The notes beneath the pieces are model-generated. The model saw only the letters and a program-made list of their open reading frames with translations. It was not told where the DNA came from and ran no database searches. Of a DNA stretch of 64,000 nt, positions 673 to 62,150 are shown one piece after another. Made by a program: the position numbers and the translations under genes. The number at the start of each line of letters is the position of its first letter. Position 1 is the first letter of the stretch. Source of the stretch: a virus; IMG/VR virus record IMGVR_UViG_3300030104_002421, positions 62,001-126,000 of that record; one strand, written 5' to 3'.

Positions 673-1866
673 ATGAAACTAAATGATAAACAAAAAACAT
701 TTGTTGAGACTGCTTTCAAGGAGTTTGGTACAGATACCATTACTAGAAAACAAGTCCAAGAAATTGAGACTAAATTTAACTTAACTGGTAACAGTTGGTT
801 AGTAAATTCAGGAGACTACAAAGTGGGTCGTGGCGTATATAAATTACCTGTTAACGGTATGGTTAACCCCTCTAAAAATGTTAAACAGAATTTAAAACCT
901 AAACCAGTTATTGAACAACCACAAGAAAAGGTTACTCTACAATCTACTGAAAGTACCGCTGATAACTTGGTACCTTCTAAAGAGGCGACCTTTGTATCTT
1001 TTGGTAACTACAAAGATATTAAGAATATTGTTAAATCAAAAATCTTTTATCCTACTTTTATTACTGGTTTATCTGGTAACGGTAAAACTTTAAATATAAT
1101 ACAAAGTTGTGCTGAGTTAAAAAGAGAATTAATTAGAGTTAATATAACAGTTGAAACAGACGAAGACGATTTACTTGGTGGTTTCAGACTTGTAAATGGT
1201 GCAACAGTATGGCATGATGGTCCTGTTGTTGACGCTATGAAAAGAGGCGCTGTTCTATTATTAGACGAAATTGATTTAGCGTCTAATAAGATTATGTGTT
1301 TACAACCAATACTTGAAGGCAACGGTGTCTTCCTTAAAAAGATTGGTAAATTTATAGAACCACAACCTGGTTTTAATATCATTGCTACTGCCAATACTAA
1401 AGGTAAAGGTAGTGATGACGGAAGATTTATTGGTACTAATATACTCAATGAAGCATTCCTTGAAAGATTTCCTGTTACTTTTGAGCAACAGTATCCTCCA
1501 ATTAAAGTAGAGCAAAAAATACTTGAAAATGTTATGGATGCTTATAACTTAAAAGATAGTAAATTTACAGAAAACCTAGTTAAATGGGCAGATGTAATTA
1601 GAAAAACTTTTTATGATGGCGGTGTTGATGAAATAATCGCTACTAGAAGACTAGTACATATCATTAATGCTTATGCAATCTTTAAGAACAAATTAAAATC
1701 TGTTCAAGTATGTGTAAACAGATTTGATGATGATACTAAAAACAGTTTCCTAGATTTGTATTCTAAAGTGGACTCAGGAGTTGACCTAGAAGACTTATCA
1801 GGAAATATCAATGATGATGAGATAATAATGGAGAAGGAAGTTGATCCAATCAACCAACCAATCTAG
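673..1866 (+). CDS. cobS: CobS-like AAA+ ATPase (MoxR family)
   Basis: A 397-residue AAA+ ATPase. The N-terminal ~125 residues form a separate charged region. The ATPase core has Walker A GLSGNGKT (132-139), Walker B AVLLLDEID (193-201) and a sensor-like IIATANT stretch. Marine T4-like phages commonly carry this gene, called cobS by similarity to the cobaltochelatase subunit, but a role in cobalamin synthesis is doubtful; an ATPase acting with the adjacent VWA protein is more likely. It starts at an ATG behind AAAGGA and its own promoter, and is followed by a GC-rich hairpin. Confidence 0.85.
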   Translation: MKLNDKQKTFVETAFKEFGTDTITRKQVQEIETKFNLTGNSWLVNSGDYKVGRGVYKLPVNGMVNPSKNVKQNLKPKPVIEQPQEKVTLQSTESTADNLVPSKEATFVSFGNYKDIKNIVKSKIFYPTFITGLSGNGKTLNIIQSCAELKRELIRVNITVETDEDDLLGGFRLVNGATVWHDGPVVDAMKRGAVLLLDEIDLASNKIMCLQPILEGNGVFLKKIGKFIEPQPGFNIIATANTKGKGSDDGRFIGTNILNEAFLERFPVTFEQQYPPIKVEQKILENVMDAYNLKDSKFTENLVKWADVIRKTFYDGGVDEIIATRRLVHIINAYAIFKNKLKSVQVCVNRFDDDTKNSFLDLYSKVDSGVDLEDLSGNINDDEIIMEKEVDPINQPI

Positions 1867-1897
1867 TATGAAATTCATTCATAATGTAGACCTCGTA

Positions 1898-1938
1898 GGT
1901 GGCGGATTTCATAAACCCGCCACCGTTTGTTCTACTTT
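1898..1938 (+). terminator. Terminator-like hairpin after cobS
   Basis: A perfect 8 bp GC-rich stem (GGTGGCGG at 1898-1905 with CCGCCACC at 1917-1924, 11-nt loop) is followed by a T-rich tail at 1926-1938. It lies between the CobS-like gene and the tRNA-like gene, where it could end the cobS transcript or mark a processing site. Confidence 0.55.
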
Positions 1939-1940
1939 GA

Positions 1941-2014
1941 GCGGGTTAAGTATAAAAGTAATACGCTTTGCTACCAGTAAAGAGAACTTTGGGCAGTACA
2001 AAGGATCCGCTCCA
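1941..2014 (+). tRNA. tRNA-Gly-like gene (anticodon ACC) with non-canonical D- and T-loops
   Basis: The 74 nt fold into a complete cloverleaf. The acceptor is 1941-1947 with 2004-2010 (7 bp, two G-U). The D-stem is GTAT/ATAC (4 bp). The anticodon stem is CTTTG/TAAAG with loop CTACCAG, giving anticodon ACC. The T-stem is CTTTG/CAAAG. The gene ends with discriminator T and encoded CCA. GCGGG...CCGCTCCA is the usual tRNA-Gly frame. Unusually, the D-loop (AAAAGTA) lacks the GG pair, the T-loop is GGCAGTA instead of TTCRANY, and position 8 is A. The same T-loop occurs in the tmRNA acceptor piece at 55812-55818. It may be a special-purpose or decaying tRNA; intact helices argue against simple decay. 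Confidence 0.6.
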
Positions 2015-2027
2015 ATAAAATAAAGAT

Positions 2028-2231
2028 ATGACTATAACAGTAATAGTAAAAAATAACAATGTAGAGAAAGCGATTAGAACGCTTAAGAAAAAAGTTTTAA
2101 AAGAAGGTCTCTTAAAAGAAATTAAACAAAGGCAGTATTACGAAAAACCTAGTTTAAAGAGACAAAGAAAACATAAAGAGAACCTAAAGCGTGTTGCTAA
2201 ATTAAAGAAGCAGCGTGAAAGGGAATCTTAA
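2028..2231 (+). CDS. rpsU: Ribosomal protein bS21
   Basis: A 67-residue, very basic protein with the bS21 pattern: an N-terminal strand (ITVIVKNNNVEKAIRTLKKK), then EIKQRQYYEKPS and a C-terminal run of K/R (KRQRKHKENLKR). bS21 sits in the 30S subunit near the anti-Shine-Dalgarno region. Pelagic phages are known to encode it, presumably to bias host ribosomes toward phage mRNA. The gene follows the tRNA-Gly-like gene by 13 bases, so both may be expressed as a small translation-related unit. Confidence 0.85.
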   Translation: MTITVIVKNNNVEKAIRTLKKKVLKEGLLKEIKQRQYYEKPSLKRQRKHKENLKRVAKLKKQRERES

Positions 2232-55414: not shown

Positions 55415-55799
55415 AGAACTATCATTGTTAGTATTTTTACTAACATTTATTATAATTGTTTCAGTATGGACAACATCAGCAGCTGCTGAAGGACCAAAGT
55501 ATGATTTATCAAAAATGAAGCAGAGACAAGTACCTGCTTATTGTGGAGATACTGGGTTTATGTTTGAAACATCATTAGAATTATTTAATGAATTACCAAT
55601 TGCAGGTGCTGAAGTTAGAACGGCAGGAATGCCAGATGCTCCAATCATAGGTATCATTACTCTAACTTATAACGAAGATAGAGGTTCAGGTACTGTAATG
55701 ATGACTATACCAGCAATAGGCGAGACATGTGTTCTAGCATATGGTATGAATTGGCAATTTTATAACGAAATTCATGTTGAAGGTAATGAGAGTAAATAG
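55401..55799 (+). CDS. Secreted small protein next to tmRNA
   Basis: A 132-residue protein with a signal peptide (LSLLVFLLTFIIIVSVWTTSA, cleavage near AAA|EGPK). Two cysteines (AYCGDT, ETCVLA) could pair. Its end runs up to the tmRNA acceptor piece. Function unknown. Confidence 0.6.
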   Translation: MKKIKELSLLVFLLTFIIIVSVWTTSAAAEGPKYDLSKMKQRQVPAYCGDTGFMFETSLELFNELPIAGAEVRTAGMPDAPIIGIITLTYNEDRGSGTVMMTIPAIGETCVLAYGMNWQFYNEIHVEGNESK

Positions 55800-55834
55800 T
55801 ATGGACGGCGGGGCAGTACCGCCCACCTCCACCA
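55800..55834 (+). ncRNA. ssrA: tmRNA acceptor piece (permuted, two-piece ssrA)
   Basis: The T-stem GGCGG/CCGCC (55807-55811 with 55819-55823) has loop GGCAGTA, then CACCTCC (55824-55830), A and encoded CCA (55832-55834). The 3' strand pairs with GGGGGTG at 55842-55848 of the coding piece to form the acceptor stem. The acceptor half precedes the coding half, the circular permutation of alphaproteobacterial two-piece tmRNA. The 5' end of this piece is not fixed by the sequence. Confidence 0.85.
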
Positions 55835-55841
55835 CAGACAC

Positions 55842-55994
55842 GGGGGTGAAATAGGTTCGACAGCTATTAGAAATCGTGCTGGAGTGGATAGTCCAAAGAC
55901 TTAAAACTAAAATAAAAGCAAACTTTAATGAGTATGCATTAGCAGCGTAGGCTGTTAGGGGTTTGCCTTGTACCTTGCAACAGAAACAAGGCAC
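55842..55994 (+). ncRNA. ssrA: tmRNA coding piece (two-piece ssrA)
   Basis: It begins GGGGGTGAAATAGGTTCGAC, the tmRNA 5' consensus, and carries a tag frame GCA...TAG at 55918-55950, read as ANFNEYALAA. The alanine resume codon and -ALAA end are what tag proteases recognise. A terminal hairpin TGCCTTGT/ACAAGGCA (55964-55971 with 55986-55993) closes it. A 7-base spacer (55835-55841) separates the two halves. Confidence 0.9.
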
Positions 55995-56012
55995 CAAACA
56001 AAGGAGATTGTT

Positions 56013-56147
56013 ATGATTGAAGTATTAGAAATTTTATTACCAGTTGGTATCATAGTTGCATGTGCTTATGGCATTGGGTATCTATCTGGAAGTGAGGCAA
56101 CAAGAGAAATTTATAACCCAACATTGAGAAAGAATGATTTAAAATGA
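56013..56147 (+). CDS. 44-residue membrane peptide
   Basis: AAAGGAG precedes the ATG. It has one membrane segment (ILLPVGIIVACAYGIGYL) and a charged tail. Its stop overlaps the next start. Function unknown. Confidence 0.55.
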   Translation: MIEVLEILLPVGIIVACAYGIGYLSGSEATREIYNPTLRKNDLK

Positions 56148-61868: not shown

Positions 61869-62150
61869 ATGGATTTATTTTTTACAATTTTAGTTGATTT
61901 TGGATTGCCAGTTGCAGCTGCAATGGTAATGGGGGTATTCATATACATTATTTTAAAGTATATACTATCCGGTGTTGTAGGTCAAGTACAAACAATCACT
62001 ATGTTAATCTCCGCTTTAGACAACAGAATTAAAACTATGAACCACGATATGGTAAAACTTGATATATTAATAAGTAGCGCTTTGAACTTACGACCTGACC
62101 TTGATAGAATATCCAGAGCAGATGGTAAAGAAGACGCCAGAAAAGACTAA
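61869..62150 (+). CDS. Small membrane protein, tandem copy 1
   Basis: A 93-residue protein with an N-terminal membrane segment (LPVAAAMVMGVFIYIILKY) and a coiled coil (ITMLISALDNRIKTMNHDMVKLDIL). It is paralogous to the next gene. The size and layout resemble holin-like BhlA/UviB proteins, but I cannot confirm that. Confidence 0.6.
   Translation: MDLFFTILVDFGLPVAAAMVMGVFIYIILKYILSGVVGQVQTITMLISALDNRIKTMNHDMVKLDILISSALNLRPDLDRISRADGKEDARKD

Follow-up and report, generated by a model that had tools for sequence, protein, structure and literature searches.

The question raised by positions 1941–2014 (plus strand) of the window, i.e. the whole stretch of 64,000 nucleotides that was analysed (positions 62,001 to 126,000 of the 146-kb virus record IMGVR_UViG_3300030104_002421), is what a cloverleaf RNA with a glycine anticodon, but with unusual D- and T-loops, might be used for. 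The first-pass annotation of this DNA had considered a non-ribosomal glycine carrier, a decoy, or a new class of tRNA that is missed by tRNA finders. The comparisons described below make it quite probable (about 85%) that the locus is a working phage-encoded tRNA-Gly for ordinary decoding, and that it belongs to a widespread class with an alternative elbow, here called A18/G55 tRNAs.

The tRNA-Gly gene and its relatives

The tRNA-Gly(ACC) gene is 74 nt long, including an encoded CCA, and has the layout GCGGGTT AA GTAT AAAAGTA ATAC G CTTTG CTACCAG TAAAG AGAA CTTTG GGCAGTA CAAAG GATCCGC T CCA, in which 21 of 21 stem positions pair when G-U is counted. Neither strand of the window contains another 74-nt cloverleaf with at least 20 of 21 pairs and CCA, and none arose when the plus strand was shuffled 300 times, the best having 18 pairs, so the position and fold proposed earlier stand. 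Alignment of the relatives allows the parts to be numbered, all on the plus strand. The 5′ strand of the acceptor stem, GCGGGTT (1941–1947), begins with G1, C2 and G3, which are among the identity bases recognized by bacterial GlyRS. The D-loop AAAAGTA (1954–1960) corresponds to A14 A15 A16 A18 G19 U20 A21 and aligns with the canonical 7-nt D-loops AATGGTA and AGTGGTA that are found in these phages. The anticodon loop CTACCAG (1971–1977) carries the anticodon ACC at 1973–1975, reading GGU, and the variable loop AGAA (1983–1986) has 4 nt, as in 118 of the 127 A18/G55 tRNAs that were collected. The T-loop GGCAGTA (1992–1998), representing G54 G55 C56 A57 G58 U59 A60, is the most common one in the class (84/127), and the discriminator U73 is followed by CCA (2011–2014), which is encoded in 115 of the 127. 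Base 8 is A in the window copy, as was correctly remarked before, with U8 in at least 90% of the relatives. Compared to canonical bacterial tRNA-Gly, the gene shares the cloverleaf, Gly anticodon, G1-C72, C2-G71, G3-C70, U73, CCA, G19, C56, G53-C61 and A14, whereas it differs by A18 for G18, G55 for U/Ψ55, G54/G58 for U54/A58, the 4-nt variable loop and A8.

Upstream of the tRNA lies a gene for a CobS-like AAA ATPase (673–1866, plus strand), annotated as CobS in Pelagibacter phage HTVC008M, and downstream a gene for a phage ribosomal protein bS21 (2028–2231, plus strand), which starts 13 nt past the CCA. The conserved 17-mer ATAATGTAGACCTCGTA (1881–1897, plus strand) and a GC-rich hairpin, GGTGGCGG/CCGCCACC (1898–1924, plus strand), separate the CobS-like gene from the tRNA. 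In many relatives, the same 17-mer comes after the CobS-like gene and precedes a hairpin of which the sequence varies.

Within the window, ARAGORN calls just a tRNA-Thr(UGU) and the tmRNA, and not the tRNA-Gly. The covariance-model search that had been proposed, done with the Rfam tRNA model RF00005, gave no match to the tRNA-Gly, also when this region was searched by itself with the cut-off relaxed to E ≤ 10. Nothing in Rfam rose above noise, and the idea of a regulatory element or ribozyme at this locus was therefore rejected. The gene has a full anticodon arm and therefore is not a tmRNA, the latter being a separate gene at 55739–56041; it also has no CUA anticodon, no elongated anticodon stem and no loss of G19/C56, by which a tRNA-Pyl would be recognized. 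The phage-encoded tmRNA is of the permuted type, and its alphaproteobacterial-type T-loop is that of the tRNA-Gly: the identity reported in the first-pass annotation is found at 55812–55818, in the tmRNA acceptor piece. The alphaproteobacterial two-piece tmRNA (RF01849) has the T-loop consensus GGC(A/G)GUA, which the window tRNA-Gly shares, but tmRNA lacks such an anticodon loop, and a matching A18 in its D-loop hinges on one indel. Replacement of U by G at the equivalent of position 55 in Caulobacter tmRNA, and of two Us by two Gs in that of Reclinomonas mitochondria, has been described (PMC1168896).

A pattern scan of IMG/VR for the Gly form yielded at least 119 contigs, and together with loci found earlier this gave at least 70 distinct real Gly relatives, plus one chance match. 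An NCC anticodon, C2-G71, G3-C70 and U73 are present in 70 of the 70 relatives listed. Because the pattern itself demanded the anticodon letters CC and the 3′ acceptor end, the unbiased support for Gly identity comes from the relatives found by BLAST, all of which have a Gly anticodon. The IMG/VR relatives have a fixed length in common. In an alignment of 28 Gly relatives, 96.3% of the cells were paired as compared to 71.8% in shuffles, and the covariation score was 0.670 as compared to 0.175 for shuffled alignments, a signal that was abolished by shifting the stem partners. The cloverleaf with stems of 7, 4, 5 and 5 bp and CCA is kept through compensatory change, as in other tRNAs. Absence of stem covariation and the presence of a normal tRNA-Gly at this locus in relatives had been named beforehand as observations that would speak against a functional variant; the stems do covary, and the relatives hold the same A18/G55 elbow at the locus, with no normal tRNA-Gly there. 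A search with the Gly pattern over 84,980 GTDB genomes (r220) returned one match only, which was dismissed as chance since it has 6 of 21 pairs, and the class signature was found in 0 of 287 Patescibacteria.

The pair at positions 18 and 55

In the known tRNA elbow, residue 18 intercalates between residues 57 and 58 and pairs with Ψ55, and G19-C56 forms an exposed face for the ribosome and other partners (PMC4810234; PMC7912444). The residues G18, Ψ55, U54 and A58 are considered nearly universal among tRNAs (PMC7912444, PMC4810234), and elbow positions 18, 54, 55 and 58 are usually modified (PMC7912444). The earlier suggestion that the interacting D-loop and T-loop bases of the window tRNA were both lost needs correction, since G19 and C56 are present and just 18-55 (and 54-58) are changed. 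Throughout the class, A takes the place of G at residue 18 and G19 is unchanged, with D-loops such as AAAAGTA, AGAAGTA and AATAGCA; in an alignment of 42 tRNAs with many identities, D-loop columns 14, 17, 18 and 20 (A, A, G, A) are invariant. The T-loop pattern is N54 G55 C56 R57 N58 in the class versus U54 U55 C56 R57 A58 in canonical tRNAs.

The relation between both loops was examined in an unbiased set of phage tRNAs, chosen on the basis of stems, U8, A14, U33 and G53-C61, and thus blind to positions 18, 19 and 54–58. Clustering at 80% identity gave 284 clusters, which comprised 51 with A18/G55, 217 with G18/U55, 8 with G18/C55, 2 with A18/U55, none with G18/G55 and 6 others. Residues 18 and 55 are A and G in 51 of the 53 A18 clusters, the two A18/U55 clusters being exceptions to the rule, and U or C55 accompanies G18 in 225. 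The Fisher test for this association (p 6e-54) ignores shared ancestry and overstates independence, because phage tRNAs share ancestry. Since the mixed forms number only 2 and 0, the elbow seems to have been rewired, with A18/G55 for G18/Ψ55 and G19-C56 kept, and not lost. Residue 58 tracks residue 54, the combination being G/G in 35 of the 51 G55 clusters, A/U in 9 and U/A in 4. Of the two canonical contacts, G18-Ψ55 and G19-C56, the class has the G19/C56 residues and differs at 18-55, and because 18-55 is A/G it is filed here as a variant and not as canonical tRNA. In a few clusters with U56 (T-loops TTTGAAT and TTTGATT; L352:1255, L361:4868, L365:9708), an A replaces G19. This small sample suggests a second natural elbow exchange, with A19-U56 for G19-C56.

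Where G18 of a standard elbow enters the T-loop and pairs with Ψ55, next to the pair of G19 with C56, A18 and G55 would form a different buried pair. Because G19-C56, G53-C61, A14 and usually U8 are kept, the same L-shape could form, and since A18 is still a purine, an L-shape in which the outer G19-C56 face is unchanged is plausible for these tRNAs. This face, with which the ribosome and RNase P interact, would then be preserved. The replacement usually extends to residues 54 and 58 (G/G, A/U, others). The positions that are altered in the class (18, 54, 55 and 58) are the carriers of Gm18, m5U54, Ψ55 and m1A58. The common GGCAGTA form replaces all four, with G19, C56, G53 and C61 remaining, and an elbow of this form should lack the four modifications; over the class as a whole, the swap is predicted to remove the targets for Gm18 and Ψ55 and mostly those for m5U54 and m1A58.

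Amino acids, tRNA arrays and phages

A second scan of IMG/VR relied on no more than the D-loop and T-loop signature (TARAAGTA, 31 nt, GGCAGTAC), leaving anticodon and acceptor unconstrained. It gave 84 good cloverleaves, 19 of which have non-Gly anticodons, and because such anticodons share the elbow, a glycine-specific account was abandoned. Over all loci fetched, the A18/G55 class comprises 127 distinct tRNAs for 15 amino acids, with 21 anticodons. The His members have C73 and most Gln members G73, which are the discriminators required by the respective synthetases; charging by synthetases of the host is predicted for the class. A covariance model of 42 diverse members again indicated conserved stems: 97.1% of the cells are paired, and the covariation score is 1.077 as compared to 0.244.

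The contribution to phage tRNA sets was examined with 16 regions that hold tRNA arrays, taken from virus contigs and one Streptomyces phage, which together contain 36 A18/G55 tRNAs. ARAGORN misses 32 of these 36, in agreement with the initial idea of a new class that escapes tRNA finders, now shown to be conserved and covarying, although ARAGORN does detect some variants with the T-loops AGCGTTA or TGCGTTA (e.g. L156). For 31 of the 36, the anticodon is absent from the ARAGORN set of the same array, where about 16 would be expected (0 of 20,000 permutations), and 5 of the 36 duplicate an anticodon that is already present. For example, the 23 ordinary tRNAs of one array cover all amino acids except Lys, which is supplied by an A18/G55 tRNA, Lys-UUU; in another array, Ala, Met and Trp are missing from the ordinary set, and the two A18/G55 tRNAs provide Ala-UGC and Met. 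In such arrays, the A18/G55 tRNAs supply anticodons that are otherwise uncovered. In the larger open reading frames of the window, GGT, the codon that corresponds to the ACC anticodon, accounts for 671 of 990 Gly codons (68%), and ACA, read by the window tRNA-Thr, for 544 of 924 Thr codons. Gap-filling and codon match are what is expected of decoding tRNAs, unlike a glycine carrier or a decoy. Three points are less favorable for a decoding role of the window copy: the ACC anticodon, which is rare for bacterial Gly, A8 instead of U8, and the lack of a strong promoter directly upstream. Nor is A34 known to be modified in bacterial tRNA-Gly.

The class also occurs in phages that have been isolated. 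Pelagibacter phage HTVC008M has the same gene order as the window and an unannotated relative of the tRNA-Gly, and in Pelagibacter phage Mosig an unannotated relative is flanked by a small heat-shock gene and the gene for the sliding clamp. The 96-bp open reading frame Mosig_000011 (MT647606.1 7774–7869; L276:5984–6079), listed as a hypothetical protein, overlies an A18/G55 tRNA-Gly and is unlikely to encode a protein. Streptomyces phage Jay2Jay carries an A18/G55 tRNA-His at 95456–95529, which is annotated as tRNA-His and adjoins a normal one, and Streptomyces phage Anedea has the same A18/G55 tRNA-His, unannotated, as well as an A18/G55 tRNA-Met. The adjacent tRNA-His(GUG) genes of Jay2Jay (L325:4995 and L325:5092), one canonical and one of the A18/G55 type with encoded CCA, form a natural test pair.

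A Gly-GCC member with D-loop AGTAGTA and T-loop TGCGAAT is 89% identical to a canonical Gly-GCC outside the loops, which argues that the swap recurred; it thus appears to have arisen more than once. A nearest-neighbour comparison concerning the ancestry of the class was even (33 vs 33), with one clear recent conversion, and a single ancestry was rejected in favor of more than one origin.

Possible transcription signals were surveyed in 73 Gly relatives for which 90 nt of upstream sequence was available. A sigma-70-like site scoring at least 10 out of 12 is present in 51 of the 73 (4% of shuffles) and one scoring at least 11 in 28 (0.3% of shuffles). With 26 Gly relatives, the distance from the end of the −10 hexamer to the first tRNA base is 7 or 8 nt, and transcription may start at or beside the mature 5′ end; if this is true, processing by RNase P could be spared. 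Examples of such promoters are L186:3111, L188:3054 and L264:755, and the −35 box is often located within the loop of a terminator-like hairpin. The window copy has no strong promoter directly upstream (best 8/12) and is probably transcribed together with its neighbours. The genes 3′ of the Gly relatives (n = 70) encode a sliding clamp in 24 cases, a peroxiredoxin-like protein in 13 and bS21 in 9. Since these downstream genes differ among phages, the tRNA-Gly seems to move within phage genomes.

Alternative explanations and implications

The short distance to the downstream genes, which often begin 4–26 nt past the CCA, together with predicted starts on or directly beside the first base of the tRNA, could also fit a cis-acting, tRNA-like leader that tunes stability or translation of the mRNA for bS21, sliding clamp or peroxiredoxin-like protein. 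We regard this as improbable, as the downstream genes vary between phages, whereas identity bases, anticodons and CCA are conserved and the class also occurs inside tRNA arrays. Still less credit can be given to a non-ribosomal glycine carrier that is charged by GlyRS and binds poorly to EF-Tu, analogous to the staphylococcal peptidoglycan tRNA-Gly, in which the D-loop GG is altered. The window's own subfamily is indeed mostly Gly, with Gly-like acceptor ends and U73, but the staphylococcal tRNAs are for Gly only, whereas the A18/G55 elbow is shared by tRNAs for 14 other amino acids, which fill anticodon gaps of arrays, and the ACC anticodon matches the main Gly codon of the phage. The same arguments speak against the decoy that had been suggested earlier, and a decaying pseudogene or decoy, for which the departure of the loops from textbook sequences might plead, is hardly conceivable because the four stems covary strongly; moreover, the elbow bases are invariant and CCA is encoded across many lineages. 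A tRNA-Gly that is used by the ribosome in the ordinary way thus remains the preferred reading.

A separate issue is why the elbow differs, and selection by host enzymes is compatible with decoding because it concerns this issue only. The tRNAs would still decode, and the altered elbow would evade tRNA-attacking defences, or would evade or make unnecessary the enzymes that modify the elbow. The GGCAGTA form fits this idea, since it replaces all four usually modified positions (PMC7912444) and leaves the structural residues G19, C56, G53 and C61 in place. Furthermore, anticodon-loop changes or supplementation are known ways in which phage tRNAs evade tRNA-targeting defences (PMC10264068, PMC11555353). 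On the other hand, an elbow-reading defence was not identified in our analysis, and canonical U55 tRNAs adjoin A18/G55 tRNAs within the same arrays, which argues against a genome-wide pressure. We therefore consider such selection a tentative explanation, with the odds somewhat against it. The same reserve applies to the broader proposal of a second elbow solution across most amino acids that works without Ψ55 and the other modifications and escapes elbow-reading host enzymes, including defence nucleases. The change could reflect release from modification, evasion of host enzymes that read tRNAs, or drift that is tolerated in phage tRNAs.

Other natural tRNAs deviate from the canonical elbow in a different manner. 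The tRNA-Pyl lacks the G18 G19 and T-Ψ-C motifs, and type II mitochondrial tRNAs of mammals have lost the usual motifs of both loops together with their interaction (PMC7609411). However, in tRNA-Pyl G19/C56 are missing too, the D-loop is 5 nt long and the anticodon stem is elongated, whereas the A18/G55 class keeps G19-C56 and a standard cloverleaf. Likewise, the D/T interaction is abandoned in the mitochondrial type II tRNAs, and appears to be re-paired and strictly kept in the A18/G55 class. Related artificial elbows may have emerged from selections of suppressor tRNAs with randomised D- and T-loops. We found no description of the A18/G55 class in the open-access papers that were searched, including PMC7912444, PMC7609411, PMC4810234, PMC10264068 and PMC11555353, which does not prove that there is none.

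Judged from their sequences, the A18/G55 tRNAs form a large and mostly overlooked viral group that covers 15 or more amino acids and in which another matching pair appears to have been substituted for the 18-55 contact. Phage tRNA sets are consequently under-counted by at least one standard finder (ARAGORN), which affects analyses of codon compensation as well as host prediction by tRNA matching. Since cultured phages of Pelagibacter (HTVC008M, Mosig) and Streptomyces (Jay2Jay, Anedea) carry such tRNAs, the class is open to experimental study and offers a ready test of the purpose of elbow modifications. The existence of a widespread natural class in which G18 and U55, and usually also U54 and A58, are jointly replaced indicates that the tRNA elbow has a second solution.
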